A program made the position numbers and the translations under genes. Below the pieces are notes generated by a model. That model did no database searches and was not told the origin of the DNA. It saw only the letters and a program-made list of their open reading frames with translations. Positions 1,777 through 20,066 of a DNA stretch of 20,746 bases are shown here, one piece after another (position 1 is the stretch's first letter; every line of letters begins with the position of its first letter). The DNA comes from a virus: positions 1 through 20,746 of IMG/VR virus record IMGVR_UViG_3300017708_003286; one strand, given 5' to 3'.

Positions 1777-1793
1777 AATCTTGTTCCTTTAGT

Positions 1794-1816
1794 GTGTATA
1801 TACACTAATATTACAC
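1794..1816 (-). promoter_or_regulatory. Palindrome and late-promoter-like motif before the tape measure gene
   Basis: On the minus strand GTGTAATATTAGTG (1803-1816) matches the motif found before several other structural genes and overlaps the stop codon of the upstream gene. It is followed by the perfect 12-base palindrome GTGTATATACAC (1794-1805). Unlike other copies it lies 26 bases before the ATG, leaving room for the Shine-Dalgarno site. It may be a promoter or an operator; the function is inferred. Confidence 0.4.
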
Positions 1817-3866: not shown

Positions 3867-3880
3867 GTGTAATTATCTAC
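3867..3880 (+). promoter_or_regulatory. Late-promoter-like motif before the plus-strand tail block
   Basis: GTGTAATTATCTAC lies immediately before the ATG at 3881. It is nearly identical to GTGTAATTACTTAC at 18459-18472 (minus strand) and shares the GTGTA core and exact 14-base spacing with copies at 7442, 7815 and 20053. There is no Shine-Dalgarno site, so the mRNA may be leaderless. Confidence 0.5.
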
Positions 3881-4345
3881 ATGGCTGGTTTTTTATCTTC
3901 TAATATGGAGTCTGCGATTAATGCAACGTATGATACATTGCATGAGACTTTCGCACGGACTATCACGGTTTTTAAAAATTCGAAAAGAACGGTGATCTCT
4001 ACAAATGCTAAATATAACAGCATTTATGGTAGGACTAACACAGGCTCTAGATCAAATGTACAATATGCTACAGAATCACAAACTTTTGATGCTAGAGTTT
4101 ATTATGTTAATATGGATGAAGAGTATTTATCGAATAATGAAAATCAACGAGGTACTCAAAACAAAATCATTCTACCAAATGGTTCTGTAAAAATTGTGGT
4201 AAAAAGTGATGCTTATGAGTTTTTGCAGGAAGCTAGGAGGGTTGAATTAGACGGAATTAGATTCGCAATCAAAAGTGATGGCTCCCCCCGTGGATTAACC
4301 ACAAATAAATTTTATACTTTTTTACTCACTCCAACTGACGAATAA
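3881..4345 (+). CDS. Putative head-closure (stopper) / head-tail connector protein
   Basis: The product is 154 residues. I chose the ATG at 3881, directly after the promoter-like motif, although the frame stays open upstream to 3779; the upstream part would overlap the divergent gene and its promoter. The layout resembles small neck proteins that plug the portal: an N-terminal helix (TYDTLHETFARTITVFKN) followed by beta-rich segments with ESQTFDARVYYV, LPNGSVKIVVKSDAYEFL and ARRVELDGIRFAIKS. The family call is from these features and position, not from a firm motif. Its TAA stop overlaps the ATG of the next gene (TAATG), pointing to translational coupling. It is the first gene of the four-gene plus-strand block that ends with the tail tube. 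Confidence 0.6.
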   Translation: MAGFLSSNMESAINATYDTLHETFARTITVFKNSKRTVISTNAKYNSIYGRTNTGSRSNVQYATESQTFDARVYYVNMDEEYLSNNENQRGTQNKIILPNGSVKIVVKSDAYEFLQEARRVELDGIRFAIKSDGSPRGLTTNKFYTFLLTPTDE

Positions 4346-5791: not shown

Positions 5792-6898
5792 ATGGCCAGA
5801 AATAGAGTAATTTATCAATCGGAAGCTCTTTACGTTAGTGAAGACGCAGGTTCTACTGGGGTGACCAAACATCACCAGTTAGAGAGCATTCAAAGTGCTA
5901 ACTATAACTTTTCAGTCACTAGGCAGGATATCAACTGCTTCGGCAAAGCAGCTCGCACTGATAGCATTCTAATGGATGCTCCCACTGTCGGTTTAGATTT
6001 TTCATACTATCTTACAGATGGAGGAAACGAAAAAGCTTTAGGATTTAACATTAGTGGATCTAATCAGTTCGCATCGGGACATATGGTTCAAAGTTCTGGA
6101 GCTAACCTTTTCATCTTAACTGTTGACGAAGGAAAAGACGCTTTAGGCGCAAGCACTGGAGATAGAAAATCTGTAATTGGTTTAGGAAACGCATTTGTGA
6201 GCGACTACTCTTTAGAGCTTGCAGTTGGTTCCTTGCCGACTGTTTCAGTTTCTATGGAATGTTCGAACATTAATTCAGATACTGAATTAAGCGGAACCGC
6301 CGCAGAGATTAGCGGAGTGAGTCTTCCATCTGTTGATATTACTGATGGGTCTATTGTAGACCGAACTGGAGTTTTACCAGCCCCTGAATCTGGTGACACT
6401 AGCGTTACCGCTCTTCGCCCGGGTGATATCACAGTTGATATTAGCAATTTAAGTGGAGCCGCCCTTTCGGATCTTAATGGTCCAAATACTGATGATGCAA
6501 TCCACATTCAAAGCGCATCCTTATCTATCCCATTAAGCAGAACTCCTCTTCAGCGTCTTGGAACTCGATTCAATTACGCTAGAACTGTTGATTTCCCTGT
6601 TAACGCTACTCTTAGTGTCAACGCTATCTGCAATGACGTAACAGCTAAAAACCTCGCAACGATTATCGACAATGATGATGCTAAAGAAGTAACCCTTACA
6701 CTGAAAGATGAAGGTGGAACTAATACTAAAATGCTTTACACGCTTAAAGGTTGTAGACTTGACAGCGAAAGCTTCTCCTCTAGTGTTGGATCTAATAAGT
6801 CTGTAGATTTGACATTTTCCACTCAAGTTGGTGGAGTTAATGACACTTCAAATGGAATTTTTGGATCTGGGGCATTTACCAATGCGGTATTCAGTTAA
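5792..6898 (+). CDS. Major tail tube protein (candidate)
   Basis: The product is 368 residues. The N-terminal part QSANYNFSVTRQDINCFGK (about residues 34-52) followed by APTVGLDFSYYL is the pattern of tail-tube proteins: beta strands, a reference to a fixed core motif and an FGK turn. A second strand set includes NAFVSDYSLELAVGSLPTVS (133-152) and LSRTPLQRLG (248-257). It shares these landmarks in order with the protein at 19222-20052, which I take to be a paralogue. The gene begins 47 bases after the preceding one, with an A-rich leader and no Shine-Dalgarno site. A strong hairpin terminator follows the stop. Codons look C-ending and favourable, consistent with a highly expressed virion protein. 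Tail tube is inferred from pattern and position. Confidence 0.7.
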   Translation: MARNRVIYQSEALYVSEDAGSTGVTKHHQLESIQSANYNFSVTRQDINCFGKAARTDSILMDAPTVGLDFSYYLTDGGNEKALGFNISGSNQFASGHMVQSSGANLFILTVDEGKDALGASTGDRKSVIGLGNAFVSDYSLELAVGSLPTVSVSMECSNINSDTELSGTAAEISGVSLPSVDITDGSIVDRTGVLPAPESGDTSVTALRPGDITVDISNLSGAALSDLNGPNTDDAIHIQSASLSIPLSRTPLQRLGTRFNYARTVDFPVNATLSVNAICNDVTAKNLATIIDNDDAKEVTLTLKDEGGTNTKMLYTLKGCRLDSESFSSSVGSNKSVDLTFSTQVGGVNDTSNGIFGSGAFTNAVFS

Positions 6899-6920
6899 TA
6901 AACCCTAAAACCTTAAACAA

Positions 6921-6952
6921 AAAGGGCGGTAGAAATACCGCCCTTTTTTTTT
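6921..6952 (+). terminator. Rho-independent terminator, possibly bidirectional
   Basis: An 11-base perfect stem (6921-6931 with 6936-6946), centred on GGGCGGTA and its complement, closes a GAAA loop and is followed by nine T residues to 6952. It lies 22 bases after the tail-tube stop. On the minus strand the stem is followed by TTTTTGTTT, so it may also stop transcription of the converging gene at 6974. Confidence 0.88.
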
Positions 6953-7441: not shown

Positions 7442-7455
7442 GCTTTATATTACAC
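7442..7455 (-). promoter_or_regulatory. Late-promoter-like motif before the connector gene
   Basis: GTGTAATATAAAGC abuts the ATG at 7441. It aligns base for base with GTGTAGTATAAGGT before 20052: the same 14-base length and the pattern GTGTARTATAARG. No Shine-Dalgarno site is possible in this space, so the transcript would be nearly or fully leaderless. Confidence 0.5.
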
Positions 7456-7814: not shown

Positions 7815-7828
7815 ACATTATTATACAC
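7815..7828 (-). promoter_or_regulatory. Late-promoter-like motif before the Lys-rich gene
   Basis: GTGTATAATAATGT abuts the ATG at 7814 and contains a perfect TATAAT five bases before it. It is again 14 bases long and lies just downstream of the capsid terminator, where a new start of transcription is expected. Confidence 0.5.
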
Positions 7829-7845
7829 AATATATAGAAAAATAA

Positions 7846-7881
7846 ACAAAAAAAAGAGCCGCCCCCGAAGGAGCGACTCTT
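7846..7881 (-). terminator. Rho-independent terminator after the capsid gene
   Basis: On the minus strand AAGAGTCGCTCC pairs with GGGGCGGCTCTT around a TTCG tetraloop (7854-7865 with 7870-7881; the only non-Watson-Crick pairs are G-T), followed by a run of eight T residues at 7846-7853. It lies 22 bases after the stop codon at 7904. A UUCG loop is unusually stable, so this should be an efficient stop. Confidence 0.93.
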
Positions 7882-11605: not shown

Positions 11606-13571
11606 GACTATGGTATAAAATTGCTGATGGATAAACTTCCAAGTTATGTTTATTAGATACACTCAAAACCTCATTCATTACATTTAATTCTTCTATAAGT
11701 TCGAAATTATCAATACAAGCTTCAAGGGTTTGATTCCACTGTTCACGCTTGGAGGCACAAATAATCGACTCACAAAGCTTGGTGACCATCTCTTCTTGTT
11801 GTTCATTTAACTCTCCACCAAACTTCTCTTCAGCCCTCTCCCTAGCTATAGAATTAAAGGCTTCTACGGCATAAATAGTAGATTGAATGTTTGTTCTAGA
11901 GTATTCTGCGTTAGACAGTTTTGGCTCATCTACTGTGGTAGTGCCATGTGGCCTACCAGCAGCTTCAGGGGTTTTAGCCTTATCAGGCTCTTCGTCCTCA
12001 ATCATTGGCACACCGCCAACAATAGGATTGTAAAAACCTTCTTTTCTTTGTTCTATAAAGGCTGTTTGTGCTGGCGCGATATCTTCCGCATTTGGGAACT
12101 TGCCATTATGGAACATCTCCATTCCTTGTTGAGGAGTAAGAATACCAAGCTCCATAAGGCGGGTAGAAACACGCATAAGCTGGGTTTCATCACGCATGTC
12201 GATATCCTTCATTGTAGCAGTCGGATATGACTTGAACCCAAGAGTATTAGCAATACGCTTTATCTCCTTCTGTAAAAAATCATTCAAGAAACAACTTCTA
12301 GCTTCTTTTAGACGGTCAATAAAGATTTGGGCTTTAACTTGTGTTGAATTGTATTTCTCATCTCCAACGACAATGTTTTGCAGACCTTGCTTGATATCAT
12401 CATTCAGAATCTGATACTTTGCGGGTCCAAGAACTTTATTCAGATCTGGAATAACAAAATCAGCTTTAGTAGTATAATCTGATATCAGAACCCGACCGAC
12501 ACTCTCATTCTTAAAGAGGTGTTGCATTGCGTTAATGTTATTGGCGTTCACTCCACCTTTCTCAGGTTCAGCGCCCATAGTGATAAGAAGAATGACATTC
12601 TCAACAGTACGGGTAATTGCTTGATCCATTTTTTTAAGCTCAAGCTTAGCATTGATATCTTCTAATACTGGATACCCAAATGGTATTGCAAATGGCTCAT
12701 AATCTTGTTTCTTATAGAAAGAGAAGCTAAGACGTTTGGGGTCTAATTCAATTTTGATTCCATCTGTGTAGTATGAACCATCCTTGATCAGCTTCTTCAT
12801 CTCAGGGTCTAAAGAATCATAAATTAACTGATCTTCTTCTGTAGATGGGTTCTGTAAGCGAGAAAGCTCATACTCAGATAAAACTTTTTCATATGCCCCA
12901 ACATTAAATGTGGTAGCCCTCTTAGATACAATATCGAAAGGGTTTAGTAGCACATACTTGACTGGAATCTTATTAGCGGAAGGATTAATAGAGCCAACTT
13001 GATTCATAAGTCGAGCATAATCCTCCACGTTAAATTCCCCATCAAATCTATAGACAAAAATATTACCACTACGATAATACTCACGGAAGTATTGATCTTT
13101 TAGGTTTTGAAGGTTAATGCGCTTGAAGAACTGTTGGAAGAATTCACGACTCTTTTTTGTCCCTCCCTCTAAGTAGATTTCAGTGTTCGCGAACTCAGAC
13201 ATAACGTCCACAGCGTTTCTGAATACAGCAACGTTGGCGTAAGCTTTCTGGCATAGCTCGATTCCTTCACGAACATTTACGCCATCAGCAGCATACTGGT
13301 AAGGTAACATACCCTTTCGTATGCTAGAGAATCTGTCGATAGTATTACTTACTGCTGAGCGATTAACCCTTGTAGCCTTTGAAGAGCTAGCCCTGTTAGT
13401 TCTAGCTGTAGACACACTTTTATACGAAGCGTCTGATGTATAAAATGATTCACCTAGCAATTCTGGGGTATATGCTTCTTCAGAAGCTTGGCTCATAGCT
13501 AAATCTTCCAAGTTATTGTTTTTATTGAACTTTTTCCAATAGTCTGATTTTTTTGTATACTTCCTAGCCAT
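11595..13571 (-). CDS. Phage portal protein
   Basis: The product is 658 residues. Portals form the dodecameric ring at one capsid vertex through which DNA is packaged and ejected. The order here suits the family: a basic, Ser-rich N-tail; QYFREYYRSGNIFVYRF and KYVLLNPFDIVSKRA in the first wing; YPVLEDINAKLELKKMDQAITRTVENVILLITMG leading into the central helical part; DRLKEARSCFLNDFLQKEIKRIANTLGF as the stem helix; and a helical crown with a long acidic, variable C-terminus. It is on the strand downstream of the terminase and has its own TATAAT-containing motif immediately upstream, without a Shine-Dalgarno site. The portal call rests on size, layout and gene order. Confidence 0.85.
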   Translation of the reverse strand: MARKYTKKSDYWKKFNKNNNLEDLAMSQASEEAYTPELLGESFYTSDASYKSVSTARTNRASSSKATRVNRSAVSNTIDRFSSIRKGMLPYQYAADGVNVREGIELCQKAYANVAVFRNAVDVMSEFANTEIYLEGGTKKSREFFQQFFKRINLQNLKDQYFREYYRSGNIFVYRFDGEFNVEDYARLMNQVGSINPSANKIPVKYVLLNPFDIVSKRATTFNVGAYEKVLSEYELSRLQNPSTEEDQLIYDSLDPEMKKLIKDGSYYTDGIKIELDPKRLSFSFYKKQDYEPFAIPFGYPVLEDINAKLELKKMDQAITRTVENVILLITMGAEPEKGGVNANNINAMQHLFKNESVGRVLISDYTTKADFVIPDLNKVLGPAKYQILNDDIKQGLQNIVVGDEKYNSTQVKAQIFIDRLKEARSCFLNDFLQKEIKRIANTLGFKSYPTATMKDIDMRDETQLMRVSTRLMELGILTPQQGMEMFHNGKFPNAEDIAPAQTAFIEQRKEGFYNPIVGGVPMIEDEEPDKAKTPEAAGRPHGTTTVDEPKLSNAEYSRTNIQSTIYAVEAFNSIARERAEEKFGGELNEQQEEMVTKLCESIICASKREQWNQTLEACIDNFELIEELNVMNEVLSVSNKHNLEVYPSAILYHSHEN

Positions 13572-13589
13572 TACAATATTATATTACAC
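13572..13589 (-). promoter_or_regulatory. Late-promoter-like motif before the portal gene
   Basis: GTGTAATATAATATTGTA abuts the portal ATG. It contains TATAAT exactly six bases before the ATG. It shares its first 14 bases with the motif before the PhoH-like gene (19198-19215) and, like that one, is 18 bases long. Confidence 0.55.
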
Positions 13590-13603
13590 AAAAAGTAACT
13601 TTC

Positions 13604-13619
13604 TAACTTTTAAAAGTTA
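13604..13619. repeat. 16-base perfect palindrome at the terminase stop
   Basis: TAACTTTTAAAAGTTA is its own reverse complement. It covers the TerL stop codon and lies 15 bases from the portal promoter-like motif. It is too AU-rich and lacks a T-run for a good terminator; an operator or RNA hairpin is possible. Confidence 0.5.
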
Positions 13620-15482
13620 AGAAATAAACATTGGGGTAAACGTCTCTGTAATATCAGACCCTTGATCATCTAACATGTCAAAATATACATTCATGCCCCA
13701 GTTACCTAGAACTAAAGCGGAGTAGGAGTCTTTTCGAGCTTTGTCAGCACCTCTCTGCTTACGAAGGTTAGGAGGTAGATCAAAACTTTGTGTTCCTTGT
13801 GGCGAAGTGGTAACTTGTACTAAAGCACACTGTACTTTTATAAGATCCATCATATCTCTTTGATGCTCAACAAAGTCAATCATCTTAGCTCCTTTGTTTT
13901 TCTCTTCAGCATCTTGATTTCTCAAGAACTTCAAATTTTCAATGGGGATATTAGCTTTTCTCTGCATATTGTAGTTGTCATCCATAGCAGACCCAGCAAA
14001 GTATAATCTTTTATGATCGAATGCTGATTGTAAACTTTCGTTAGCGAAACGAATCCATGTAGAGCTAGGCTTTCTTAAAAACACAAATTTTCTTGATGAT
14101 TTATCTATTTGACTCTTAAGCTTCCTAATACCTTTGGCATAATCTTTAGGGTTATCTAAATCAGCTTCTACAGTATCTATTTTTAAATTTAATTTTTTAA
14201 ATATACCACTTTCCTTACATGCACTCAAAAATTGAACACCACCATTATAATCGCCAACCACCATTTCGATATTGAAGTGGGTCAACACATAAGCCATGTA
14301 TCTAATGTGTGTTTGAAGGTTTGAGCCAGAAACAGCATAGCTATGCACTACAACGCCTTTCCTTGTCTCTGGGTGGATCTTTATCAAAAGTATGGCGAAA
14401 TCGTCTGAGCTTTCACTCTCAGACCAAGAAGGGTCAAATGCAAGGATGTATTTGGAGGAGGGGTCGCCAATTACCTCGACACACTGCCCTTCACCATCAG
14501 GGAGAGTACATGAAGCCATTTTACTAACTTTAAAATATCCAGAACTATCATCTGTGAACACAGCTCCAAATTCTCGGTCAAACTGAGACTGGCTCATTGT
14601 TGATTTAGATTGATTAATCAAATTTTGATCATATAGCTGTGGAGGCGCACAATCATAACTAAAATGCATAATTACCCTATGAGCGCCATCTTGTTTATTC
14701 TCATTGATAATTAGAGATTCATATTGTTGATAAAGCTTGAATAAATATTCAAATTTATACGATGCAGAAGATAAACCAATGATTTTGTTATTTGGCCATT
14801 GCTTCCTTTCCTCTTCGGTCATCTCGCCCTCTGCGATCATTTGAGTTTCTAAATCATAGATCTCTTGACGTTCAGTAGGGTTCTCAACAACAGAAAGGAA
14901 TGGCATAATGACCTCATTGAAGATCTTTTCTGGCATAAGAAGAAGCTCGTCGATAATCATACGTTGGAAGCGAAAACCACGAAGCTTTTCGCCATCGCCT
15001 AGAGGCAAAGCTCTGATACTACTAGAACCTATCTCCATGACCCATTCATCATTCATTTTTGATGTCCTAGTTATACATTGAGATAAGAACTCAGCTTTTG
15101 GGCTTCTAGCAATATCCTCAATCTTTTTAAATATCATCTTGGACTGACGGAATGATTTAGATATGATTCCTATCTGCACACCTTGATTCATGATAGCGTC
15201 TAGAATAGCAAATATAGCAGTAGAGAAAGATTTACTCATACCACGACTCCATATGCCCAAAAAGTAGTCCGTCTCCATCATGGACTTGACAGCCATATGT
15301 TGAAACGGAAATAATTTCACACCTGTGAATAACTCACAAGCAAAAGATGGATTATCTCTTAAAAACTTATAAAGTAAAAGCTTAGCCTCTCCTTCTTCGA
15401 TGTATCCTTCTTTGGAAAGTATCTCTTGGTTTACTTCTTTGAACTTCTTGTACAGGTCTTGATTGCCTTCTATCCAAGCCAT
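13617..15482 (-). CDS. terL: Terminase large subunit (packaging ATPase and nuclease)
   Basis: The product is 621 residues, a normal length. It cuts the replicated DNA into genome units and pumps it into the prohead through the portal. Visible motifs: an adenine-binding-like FQHMA (60-64); a Walker A of the deviant type WSRGMSKSFS (78-87), with SKS in place of GKS/T as in many terminases; Walker B MIIDE (175-179) with its catalytic Glu; a coupling motif GLSSAS (about 236-241); and nuclease acids in ILAFDPSW (Asp350), VVGDYNGG (Asp411) and KMIDFVEHQRD (Asp536 and/or Asp543). The start ATG is inside a run of seven A residues and overlaps the upstream nuclease frame by 101 bases; an AAGGA site lies about 11 bases upstream. 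The overlap may couple their translation. Confidence 0.96.
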   Translation of the reverse strand: MAWIEGNQDLYKKFKEVNQEILSKEGYIEEGEAKLLLYKFLRDNPSFACELFTGVKLFPFQHMAVKSMMETDYFLGIWSRGMSKSFSTAIFAILDAIMNQGVQIGIISKSFRQSKMIFKKIEDIARSPKAEFLSQCITRTSKMNDEWVMEIGSSSIRALPLGDGEKLRGFRFQRMIIDELLLMPEKIFNEVIMPFLSVVENPTERQEIYDLETQMIAEGEMTEEERKQWPNNKIIGLSSASYKFEYLFKLYQQYESLIINENKQDGAHRVIMHFSYDCAPPQLYDQNLINQSKSTMSQSQFDREFGAVFTDDSSGYFKVSKMASCTLPDGEGQCVEVIGDPSSKYILAFDPSWSESESSDDFAILLIKIHPETRKGVVVHSYAVSGSNLQTHIRYMAYVLTHFNIEMVVGDYNGGVQFLSACKESGIFKKLNLKIDTVEADLDNPKDYAKGIRKLKSQIDKSSRKFVFLRKPSSTWIRFANESLQSAFDHKRLYFAGSAMDDNYNMQRKANIPIENLKFLRNQDAEEKNKGAKMIDFVEHQRDMMDLIKVQCALVQVTTSPQGTQSFDLPPNLRKQRGADKARKDSYSALVLGNWGMNVYFDMLDDQGSDITETFTPMFIS

Positions 15483-16398: not shown

Positions 16399-17437
16399 CG
16401 TCCTGACTAATACCTAAGATTCGCGCTTTCCACTCTGCCATACCCTCCATCCGCTCAGCCTCTTCCTTAATTAACTTTTTTTGCATTTCTGCCATGCGAA
16501 CCATATTCTTTCGCTCTTCCTCTTCTTGAAACATCTGAACGATGGATAAAAATGACGCATTGTTCTTCTGAGACTTCTTCATGCGTTCAGCACGGTCACC
16601 TTGTAACTTCTTCGTTAAGTTCTCAATACGGGTTTCACATTGATGATATTCTTGCGATTTAGCTTTGATGATCTCCGCGAGACGCACGGTCATTTCGGTT
16701 TGATCATCAGCAACGTCAAACATATCGTTGAGTTTGTTTAGGTGAGCAGACACAACTTCTAAGTTAATAACCTCTTTGCAGACGTTAAGGTATAGGTTAA
16801 TCTCGTCTGCGGTTAAATCAGGCTTGTCCCAACTTAAACGAATAAATTCTTGTTCGAATAACTCTCTGTCTGGCTTGTTAAGATAATTATTGATGATTTT
16901 TAAAAATCTACTATTGGATAGATTGATTTGAAGCTTGTCTACACAGACTTGCTTTTGCCTGTTTAGTTTGCGATCATCTAACTCTAATCCTGTAGCATCA
17001 TTGATTTTCTTTACCACACGACTTGGGCTTTTGGGCGGAACGTAATCATTTACGGCAGCGGAGTCTTGCGATGGAACGAAATCGGGATTGACCTCGTTGA
17101 TGTGCGCCAGAACCGTTCTCTGCTCATTACTTAGTGGCTTTACTCTCTTTTCTGGAAATATAAGCTTGGCAATCTCCAACGACGACATTCCCTCCTGAGC
17201 TTGCTGGATAATGAACTCTTTTTGAGAATCGTTTAGTTCTATTTTGTCCTGTGGTTTGCGGCGGGTTGTTTTATAATCAATATTATTCTCTATTAAGTAT
17301 TTTCGAACAGCCCGACCCTCTTTCGTTCGACCATCTAAATCATCATCCCTAAAACATTTTTGGGTGAGTTCATTTAAATTTGTGACTTTATCCACATTGT
17401 TTTTTATATAGTCTTTTTGATCATCTGTTAAATCCAT
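16388..17437 (-). CDS. Duplicated HTH-like module protein, terminase small subunit candidate
   Basis: The product is 349 residues. Two clear tandem copies of a ~54-residue module occupy residues 2-55 and 67-120: each starts L-D-QK--I, has L-E/I-----F in the middle and ends R-V----I--N--D-F/Y. They look like helix-turn-helix DNA-binding units. The middle (about 150-260) is helical and could form the ring found in TerS proteins; the C-terminus (about 255-340) is a charged coiled coil. TerS proteins recognise phage DNA for packaging and usually have about 150-200 residues, so this one is long. The place two genes before TerL and the binding modules support the candidate, but no signature proves it. 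Its start overlaps the previous stop (TAATG) and its end overlaps the nuclease by 11 bases. Confidence 0.6.
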   Translation of the reverse strand: MDLTDDQKDYIKNNVDKVTNLNELTQKCFRDDDLDGRTKEGRAVRKYLIENNIDYKTTRRKPQDKIELNDSQKEFIIQQAQEGMSSLEIAKLIFPEKRVKPLSNEQRTVLAHINEVNPDFVPSQDSAAVNDYVPPKSPSRVVKKINDATGLELDDRKLNRQKQVCVDKLQINLSNSRFLKIINNYLNKPDRELFEQEFIRLSWDKPDLTADEINLYLNVCKEVINLEVVSAHLNKLNDMFDVADDQTEMTVRLAEIIKAKSQEYHQCETRIENLTKKLQGDRAERMKKSQKNNASFLSIVQMFQEEEERKNMVRMAEMQKKLIKEEAERMEGMAEWKARILGISQDDAI

Positions 17438-18114
17438 TACAAATCCCTTCCATCTTTTAAAATTTTTACTGCAATCTTATGAAATTTACACTTGAGATTC
17501 TTTACTTGTCTGTAGCCAATCTTACGATTGTTATCAGACAGTTTATACCCCATATACTTTGCTACATCTTCTTCTGTACAATCCTCGAAATATAACATAT
17601 GATATGCCCCGTATTGTTTCTCTCCAAGTTTTTTTAGCATTTTCTCGTTAAGCTTCTGTGTATCAGCATCATAATCAAAATATGAATTACACTTAACGTT
17701 TATAACATGCTCAGTATCATCCAGACTAGATGCAGTTTTCAATTCTAGTCCAAATTTTTTCTTCTTTGACCATCTAGCATAATCTTTGCACGAAACATCT
17801 TGGTTACCACTTACGGTCTTAGCACATAATTCATCCCGTGCATGTATGCATGTCGAACAAGGTTTGATATAAGACCCATAATGGTTTCTTATAAGATTCC
17901 ACATCCTATTGGTGATTACACGACTAAGCCACGGCTCCAATGGACGCGACTGATCCCACATGTGCCACTTTTGGGCGATGTGTGATTTTACCACCTGCTC
18001 AACATCTTCGAAGTCAAACCACTTGATAGCATCTAAACGCCACCTTGATCTCTGCTTCTTAACTGCTCGATCTATGATGTCTTGGTAGTCTTCATACTTC
18101 TTCTCTTCGGGCAT
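17437..18114 (-). CDS. Sigma-70-family-like transcription factor with Cys cluster
   Basis: The product is 225 residues. Residues about 25-80 resemble sigma region 2: FEDVEQVVKSHIAQKW, then PLEPWLSRVITNRMWNLIRNHYG, the pattern of ECF-type factors that bind core polymerase and the -10 box. An insertion follows with Cys86-x2-Cys89-x7-Cys97-x11-Cys109, which could bind zinc. The C-terminal part (about 155-215; YHMLYFEDCTEEDVAKYMGY then VKNLKCKFHKIA) has the layout of a sigma region 4 helix-turn-helix. Phages such as T4 use a small sigma factor (gp55) for late genes; I infer the same here, and the shared GTGTA motif is the candidate target. The gene is coupled to both neighbours by TAATG overlaps. 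It might alternatively be a divergent DNA-binding protein without sigma activity. Confidence 0.75.
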   Translation of the reverse strand: MPEEKKYEDYQDIIDRAVKKQRSRWRLDAIKWFDFEDVEQVVKSHIAQKWHMWDQSRPLEPWLSRVITNRMWNLIRNHYGSYIKPCSTCIHARDELCAKTVSGNQDVSCKDYARWSKKKKFGLELKTASSLDDTEHVINVKCNSYFDYDADTQKLNEKMLKKLGEKQYGAYHMLYFEDCTEEDVAKYMGYKLSDNNRKIGYRQVKNLKCKFHKIAVKILKDGRDL

Positions 18115-18437
18115 TAAGGTTTAGAAGTGAAATCATTCAGGTCGTACGATCCCTTCCCCTTATAGTCAGGTGGTGTGTTTTGACCCGCTAAAGAACCAAT
18201 GGTAAAAGTTTTAGGTTTTTCAATTTCTACCTGCAACCCCCGCAGTTGTGGGACGAACTCTGCGTCGGTTTCGTCATCTGAAACTACAGAGGCTTTGGTT
18301 TGATTGGGAACCTGCTCCACCGCAGCTTGAGATTGTTGCTCCCCTCCAAAACTTGCCCCACATTTAGAACAAAAATTAGGTTTAGCAAAATTATATTCAA
18401 TCTTAACCCCACAACTATAACAAAATATGTGACTCAT
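18114..18437 (-). CDS. Zinc-ribbon protein with disordered C-terminus
   Basis: The product is 107 residues. Cys6-x2-Cys9 and Cys23-x2-Cys26 form a classic zinc ribbon (FCYSCG ... FCSKCG). The rest, with GGEQQSQAAVEQ, acidic DDETDAEF and LAGQNTPPDYKGKGSYDLNDF, is probably disordered and ends in a short motif that could bind a partner. Similar short zinc-ribbon proteins occur in transcription and replication complexes. The stop overlaps the sigma-like gene's ATG, so the two proteins are made together; a role as a partner in phage transcription is inferred. It has a TATAAT box exactly six bases before the ATG. Confidence 0.65.
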   Translation of the reverse strand: MSHIFCYSCGVKIEYNFAKPNFCSKCGASFGGEQQSQAAVEQVPNQTKASVVSDDETDAEFVPQLRGLQVEIEKPKTFTIGSLAGQNTPPDYKGKGSYDLNDFTSKP

Positions 18438-18472
18438 CTTACAATTATATGAAAATTAGTAAGTAATTACAC
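18438..18472 (-). promoter_or_regulatory. Promoter region before the zinc-ribbon/sigma/packaging unit
   Basis: Two elements are seen on the minus strand. GTGTAATTACTTAC (18459-18472) nearly copies the motif before 3881. TATAAT (18444-18449) lies six bases before the ATG at 18437. The first overlaps the stop codon of the PhoH-like gene. Either or both could start the long unit running to TerL. Confidence 0.5.
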
Positions 18473-19197
18473 TATTTTTCACCTTCTAACTTTTTAATAA
18501 TGAATTTTAATATTTTACTACGCACAATATCGCCTTCATTAAAGCTAAATGTGTGAATGCCCATATCTTTGGATTCATCATCATTGAATTTTTCGAACAT
18601 TGGCTTGAATCCACTTTTTCCATTGATATCGCTTTGAAAAAAATCGCCTCCAATAATGATTTTACTGTTTTCACCTATGCGAGTGATCAAAGTAGTTAAT
18701 TCTTTTAGCGTAAAATTCTGCGCTTCATCTGCAAAAACTAATTTATTCTGCCAACTCGCGCCACGAAGGAAGTTTATTGGAACCGCTGACACTTTTTCGC
18801 GTTGTTTTAAGTAGATCGCGTCCCCAGAAGCAACGATTTCTTCCATTTTATCATAAAGTGGACACAAAAAAGGATCAAACTTGTCTGCAATATCCCCGGG
18901 TAAGCTTCCCAACCCCGTATCAGCGCTTTCAGCAATACTTCGAACATATAAAATATCTTTAGAGAAATCCTCCTCCAATAATTTTAACATCCCATACAGG
19001 GACATGTAGGTCTTTGAGCTTCCCGCAGGGCCAGAAACAAAAATAATCTTAGACTCTTCGTTTAGTATAAGGTCTAAAAACTTCTTTTGCTTGGGGCTGA
19101 ATCTAAAATTTCTTTTATTAAACTTTATCGATCTTTCAAAATCCGCTAGCAACTCAAACGGAACCTCTTTTTCCTTACCAACCTTTTTTCGGGCCAT
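18472..19197 (-). CDS. phoH: PhoH-like ATPase
   Basis: The product is 241 residues. PhoH-family proteins are P-loop ATPases related to superfamily 1 helicases and are common in marine phages, though their role is uncertain (RNA metabolism or helicase-like activity is suggested for the family). Motifs: Walker A GPAGSSKT (56-63), RSIAESADTGLGSLPGDI (85-102) typical of the PhoH core, Walker B VFADEAQN (153-160) and GGDFFQSD (182-189) like the sensor in this family. The N-terminus is basic. The ATG is preceded by the 18-base GTGTAATATAATATACAT motif without a Shine-Dalgarno site. The next gene starts 34 bases after its end, with its own promoter-like motif, so it may not be strictly co-transcribed with the sigma unit. 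Confidence 0.9.
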   Translation of the reverse strand: MARKKVGKEKEVPFELLADFERSIKFNKRNFRFSPKQKKFLDLILNEESKIIFVSGPAGSSKTYMSLYGMLKLLEEDFSKDILYVRSIAESADTGLGSLPGDIADKFDPFLCPLYDKMEEIVASGDAIYLKQREKVSAVPINFLRGASWQNKLVFADEAQNFTLKELTTLITRIGENSKIIIGGDFFQSDINGKSGFKPMFEKFNDDESKDMGIHTFSFNEGDIVRSKILKFIIKKLEGEK

Positions 19198-19215
19198 ATG
19201 TATATTATATTACAC
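19198..19215 (-). promoter_or_regulatory. Late-promoter-like motif before the PhoH-like gene
   Basis: GTGTAATATAATATACAT abuts the ATG at 19197, with TATAAT exactly six bases before it. The first 14 bases are identical to the portal motif at 13572-13589. Confidence 0.55.
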
Positions 19216-20052: not shown

Positions 20053-20066
20053 ACCTTATACTACAC
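20053..20066 (-). promoter_or_regulatory. Late-promoter-like motif before the tube paralogue
   Basis: GTGTAGTATAAGGT abuts the ATG at 20052. It is 14 bases long and aligns with GTGTAATATAAAGC at 7442-7455. Confidence 0.5.

Follow-up and report, generated by a model that had tools for sequence, protein, structure and literature searches.

The window analysed here, a contig of 20,746 nucleotides (20.7 kb) from an uncultured virus, encodes a large terminase, a PhoH-like protein, a sigma-like protein and structural genes, and several of its genes carry a GTGTAA motif just in front of the ATG. This raises the question of whether the motif marks promoters and, if so, whether transcription begins at the start codon. 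The original prediction described late promoters at fixed distances of 14 or 18 bases from the ATG, with a TATAAT box that would place the first transcribed base at the ATG. The proteins that we call portal and capsid-like lack a family match, and these labels were therefore assigned by size and gene order.

Relatives of the contig

We retrieved 80 relatives via the terminase and a second set via the sigma protein. The longest related contigs are 91-104 kb, and one long related contig encodes DNA polymerase III alpha, DnaB, primase and ribonucleotide reductase. Among isolates, no close relative was found for the terminase (<30% identity) and no relative for the capsid-like and sigma proteins; Rfam returned no match. 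A host assignment from MAG contigs was discarded, the bins being in conflict (Flavobacteriaceae vs Verrucomicrobiales). Many of the sequences are close relatives of each other, and the independent support for the results below amounts to roughly 18 gene families of the late and 20 of the early class.

GTGTAA in front of start codons in the window

Two genes belong to the 18-base class. The portal gene (ATG at 13571) is preceded by GTGTAATATAATATTGTA at 13572..13589 on the minus strand, with GTGTAA at 13589-13584, and the PhoH-like gene (ATG at 19197) by GTGTAATATAATATACAT at 19198..19215 (minus strand). The 14-base class has four members: GTGTAATTATCTAC at 3867..3880 on the plus strand, and GTGTAATATAAAGC (7442..7455), GTGTATAATAATGT (7815..7828) and GTGTAGTATAAGGT (20053..20066), all on the minus strand. 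All six sets of coordinates agree with the original prediction. So does the placement of TATAAT six bases from the ATGs at 13571 and 19197, and at 18449-18444 (minus strand) from the ATG at 18437. The last of these belongs to a zinc-ribbon gene whose upstream (18438..18472, minus strand) also holds GTGTAA at 18472-18467 and which heads a gene run that includes the sigma gene. TATAAT lies 6-7 nt from the zinc-ribbon ATG here and in most near relatives, and in another clade TATAAATATATAGT directly adjoins the ATG; a separate type of promoter may serve the sigma operon.

The proposed count of motif-to-ATG distances against shuffled sequence gave a clear excess. GTGTA stands exactly 14 bases upstream of 4 of the 18 starts in the window, against a mean of 0.021 (maximum 2) when the upstreams were dinucleotide-shuffled 20,000 times, and 14-21 bases upstream of 6 of the 18 (shuffle mean 0.159, maximum 3). 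A scan of the window with a generic sigma-70 consensus showed no excess (55 found vs 53 expected). The exact motif GTGTAADATAA was set aside as too strict, with one copy in 91 kb.

Next to the portal promoter, at 13590-13621 (minus strand), TTAACTTTTAAAAGTT, with (A)GAAAGTTAACTTT or a similar sequence after it, forms two adjacent AT-rich palindromes over the terminase stop codon. They are nearly invariant across clades at the terminase-portal junction of 78 relatives, and each contig has a single copy of the first one. An operator, a packaging site and an element upstream of the promoter are possible roles.

The conserved core and its spacing

In 14 related contigs, the distances from GTGTA to ATG numbered 4 at 13, 41 at 14, 11 at 15, 15 at 16, 7 at 17 and 20 at 18, followed by few per position. 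Distances below 14 came mostly from internal or spurious ORFs, or from ATGs just upstream of a conserved start, and controls with reversed and reverse-complemented GTGTA were flat when counted per gene family. Both spacings of the original prediction are thus real and far above chance, but they are not strictly fixed: at credible gene starts, 14 is the lower bound and a tail of longer distances reaches 21. Some families are invariant (14 bases in 7/7 distinct upstreams of the 3867 gene family and in 10/10 of the 7442 family), and relatives of the 7815 and 20053 promoters show 14 or 16 and 14 or 15 bases, respectively. In 30 further contigs, GTGTAW-N8-ATG occurred 37 times vs 8 times read backwards; as these contigs and the first set are related, this counts as within-group replication and not as fully independent evidence.

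Conservation identifies GTGTAA as the core of the motif. All 78 portal upstreams contain GTGTAA or GTGTAG at a distance of 18, 20 or 21, and TATAAT is found at -12 in 36 of them and is absent from that place in 42. Upstream of the PhoH-like gene, nearly all relatives retain GTGTAA, at a distance of 15-21 that is mostly 18, and most of these upstreams lack TATAAT. Position 6 of the motif, anchored on GTGTA, is A in 87% across 18 gene families. The TATAAT of the 18-base class is a local variant, and it does not have the key role given to it in the original prediction. It is also very unlikely that the sites are ordinary host sigma-70 promoters whose TATAAT boxes adjoin the ATG, with GTGTAA as a flanking extension. 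Such a reading would account for the boxes six bases from the ATGs at 13571, 19197 and 18437, and the early genes described below do use a TATAAT-next-to-ATG design; however, it is GTGTAA that is retained in the portal and PhoH upstreams where TATAAT is missing, most members of the 14-base class have no TATAAT at -12, and the late class has no conserved -35.

The search for a -35 conserved with the late class was negative: the information lies in GTGTAA and the start region, the upstream being AT-rich, and a k-mer-by-distance count to -60 showed no partner element for the GTGTAA class. Genes for ribonucleotide reductase and a Clp-like protein also carry the motif, and since "late" was deduced from gene content, middle/late is the safer label. 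We found no report in the literature searched that links GTGTAA to late promoters of such phages.

Predicted transcription starts and leaders

We consider it highly probable from these sequence patterns that the GTGTAA sites are promoters with a transcription start at, or 1-7 nt before, the start codon, giving mRNAs that would be leaderless or nearly so. In the proposed mechanism, GTGTAA would be a -10-type element, located at about -14 to -9 from the start and recognised by the host RNA polymerase with a phage sigma factor encoded at 18114-17437, and transcription would start on a purine 14 nt past the first G of the motif.

The bases around this point agree with the model. In the alignment anchored on GTGTA (18 gene families), position 14 is a pyrimidine in 81% and position 15 a purine in 90%; the purine is still seen in 84% (family-weighted) of the cases in which the base is not dictated by the ATG, and the pyrimidine at position 14 in 100% of the 14-base class. 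A purine at position 15 fits a transcription start there, which in the 14-base class is the A of the AUG. The pyrimidine at -1 alone is not specific, since a dipyrimidine before start codons has been reported for some bacteria (PMC3160421), and a pyrimidine precedes the ATG in 59% of these phages' other genes.

A promoter element that ends 8 nt from the ATG leaves a leader of at most 8 nt, whatever the exact start. With the fixed 14-base offset, the predicted start is the A of the ATG at 3881, 7441, 7814 and 20052, and the 18-base class would have a leader of about 3-4 nt, as at the portal gene. Transcription from the AUG itself, as originally proposed, is therefore well supported for the 14-base class, and the 18-base class is better described as not strictly leaderless. 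Over all families, we infer zero leader in members of nine and 1-7 nt in others. For the PhoH-like gene, the distance from motif to ATG varies while ACAT beside the ATG is mostly kept, so that the exact start is uncertain there.

The tape measure gene shows a different layout. Its upstream (1777..1805, minus strand) has GTGTAT at 1805-1800, a predicted start near 1791, a leader of about 15 nt with the SD-like AAAGGA, and the ATG at 1776. In its relatives the motif is 27-31 bases from the ATG, the predicted leader is 13-17 nt and an AAAGG-type SD is present in 7/7. The original prediction had set leaderless genes against genes with Shine-Dalgarno sites elsewhere. The tape measure leader bears this out; however, in the remaining genes of these phages SD motifs are no more frequent than expected (0.11 observed vs 0.10 shuffled), so the contrast rests on few genes. 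The frequency of 4-mer SD motifs is 0.05 in the late and 0.00 in the early class, not above shuffled.

These data also bear on the idea that GTGTAA is no promoter but a translation-initiation or RNA-processing signal within a longer mRNA, which we regard as improbable. The near-fixed distance from start codons and the lack of SD enrichment in GTGTAA genes would suit such a signal. Against it, the tape measure gene combines motif and SD, as expected of a promoter plus leader, a phage sigma factor gene lies nearby, and the early genes, which have complete -35/-10 promoters, keep the same register to the start codon. In addition, an intrinsic terminator at 7854..7881 (minus strand; a 12-bp stem, then a T-run) lies between the capsid-like gene and the 7828 promoter, about 25 bp upstream of the latter, so the next gene needs a transcription start between the terminator and its ATG. 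Two genes also tolerate out-of-frame ATGs at distance 9-10 from the motif, 4-5 nt upstream of the true start; one of them, at 7818, would lie outside the predicted mRNA of the 7814 gene. Elsewhere in the window, at 6919-6948, a strong palindromic terminator, AAAAAGGGCGGTAGAAATACCGCCCTTTTT, lies between converging genes and is likely bidirectional.

The promoter reading depends on correct start codons. In some ORFs another ATG closely follows the first (e.g. MTYRNM, MAGFLSSNM), as would be the case if real starts lay downstream and had normal leaders. We hold such mis-assignment to be extremely unlikely: 76% of the substitutions in codons 2-16 are at third positions, a bias that begins at codon 2 and marks the start codons as genuine, N-termini are conserved between clades and the ORFs are mostly open at the assigned ATGs. 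Phage tRNA-Met genes of the relatives were also considered as initiators that would favour leaderless mRNA, and were rejected: the two examined are not initiators because positions 1/72 pair and the three G-C pairs adjacent to the anticodon loop are missing.

A candidate phage sigma factor

The gene at 17437..18114 (minus strand) encodes a putative sigma factor, the likely reader of GTGTAA, for which the evidence from Pfam, AlphaFold2 and PDB folds is weak but consistent. Sigma70_r2 was detected in 15/16 homologues (best E 1.8e-4), and the protein of the window itself scored 19.5, under the Pfam cut-off of 24. Its AlphaFold2 model (pLDDT 72, pTM 0.39) gave weak matches in PDB (best E 0.03), most of them to sigma factors with two domains. 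GTGTAA is probably read by this phage sigma factor, as suggested by the co-occurrence of gene and motif. Between the two helical parts of the model is a low-confidence linker with several cysteines, which possibly binds metal.

Early sigma-70 promoters adjoining the ATG

A k-mer-by-distance count without a prior motif gave a second, stronger signal, with CTATACTAC at 14-9 and TTGCA at 34, which comes from early genes of the larger contigs and corresponds to complete sigma-70 promoters. The early genes would thus use host-type promoters of the form TTGHNN-N16-18-TATANT with the -10 ending 6 nt from the ATG, a position from which +1 would be the A of the AUG. The -35/-10 layout presumably resembles that of alpha-proteobacterial promoters. 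In a scan unconditioned on distance, the -10 ended 6 nt from the first ATG of the ORF in 29 promoters and 5 nt from it in 12; none were found at 6 or 5 nt in shuffles, and none at the ATG in T4, phiYS40 and HTVC008M (50 kb each). The base preceding the ATG is a pyrimidine in 30/30 distinct selected early promoters; these were conditioned on distance, and the claim rests on the unconditioned scan. TATAST-N6-ATG was found 54 vs 8 times in the 30 further contigs, and T4, phiYS40, P-SSM2, syn9 and KVP40 showed no comparable excess of TATAST-N6-ATG or GTGTAW-N8-ATG.

The same geometry in the early genes means that the early and the GTGTAA promoters are both in register with the start codon. The leaderless idea is thus well supported and extends to early genes. 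With both classes starting at or near the AUG, the phages would rely on leaderless initiation, by direct binding of the ribosome to the 5'-terminal AUG (mechanism in PMC9031893). The early regions (contig G001 79.9-88.2 kb; G043) consist of small genes in arrays, and in many of these genes a separate sigma-70 promoter is fused to the ATG; G043 has 11 TATAST-N6-ATG on one strand within 8 kb.

Comparison with known systems

T4 late promoters, TATAAATA, serve late genes with a -10-only element read by the phage sigma gp55. The GTGTAA promoters resemble them in all three features, with GTGTAA in place of TATAAATA. The T4 consensus itself is not used in this way here, as TATAAATA-N5-ATG is absent from the related contigs G001 and G002; the T4 genome has a single copy. 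The gp36 promoters of phiEco32 (tAATGTAtA) likewise have a single -10-type element, a phage sigma and no -35, with the start 6-8 bp downstream (PMC8948821). The combination of a single -10-type element, a phage sigma gene (on weak evidence) and no conserved -35 is common to these phages and ours. The sequence differs (here GTGTAA), and the passages cited for phiEco32 do not mention promoters that abut start codons.

For the Thermus phage phiYS40, most middle and late mRNAs are without leader according to a summary of earlier work (Sevostyanova 2007, summarised in PMC3594737), a likeness to the mRNAs predicted here. However, leaderless genes are common in its host, Thermus, neither pattern is in comparable excess in phiYS40, and the phages here pair two classes of promoter and also encode a sigma factor. 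Leaderless phage mRNAs are already known from phiYS40, and the conserved fusion of predicted promoter and start codon seen here is a new variation on them. In Deinococcus-Thermus ORFs with an adjacent -10 motif and in TA-led genes, a -10 box 6-7 bp before the ORF gives leaderless mRNA (PMC12340547, PMC3160421). The early promoters share that geometry, but those cases are from cellular genomes, whereas here it occurs in phages, with a -35 and with a second promoter type in the same register. As in leaderless genes, the -10 element lies 6-8 bp from the start codon more often than by chance and SD motifs before the start are no commoner than in shuffled sequence, although other genes are not SD-enriched either.

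A parallel in Pelagibacter phage HTVC008M

An unrelated phage, Pelagibacter phage HTVC008M, shows the same two-mode layout with a T4-type motif. In 8 of the 37 starts inspected, exactly 5 nt separate the annotated ATG from the end of TATAAATA or of a 7/8 match, and two further genes have TATAAATA 18 nt away and a leader with the SD GGAG. Genome-wide, TATAAATA-N5-ATG occurs five times and never read backwards; GTGTAW-N8-ATG occurs 9 vs 2 times. By analogy with T4 late-promoter geometry, the ATG-adjacent genes are predicted to give leaderless mRNA. No report of leaderless genes in HTVC008M was found in the literature searched.

We lean slightly towards a broader reading, that this marine phage lineage uses leaderless translation as a main mode of expression, with early promoters for the host sigma and late promoters for a phage sigma both fused to the ATG, and that the T4-like pelagiphage converged on the same arrangement via its own late promoter. 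If true, leaderless initiation would be general among the phages that infect some marine bacteria, and this would be a case of phage gene expression depending on it outside Thermus. For many genes in an uncultured marine phage group, promoter and translation start would form one short unit, giving a simple rule to locate promoters and correct start codons in viral metagenomes, together with a new candidate phage sigma/promoter pair. HTVC008M is cultured, so the idea is directly testable there, and its ATG-adjacent TATAAATA sites include those at 6280, 7562, 18916, 31132 and 49760.
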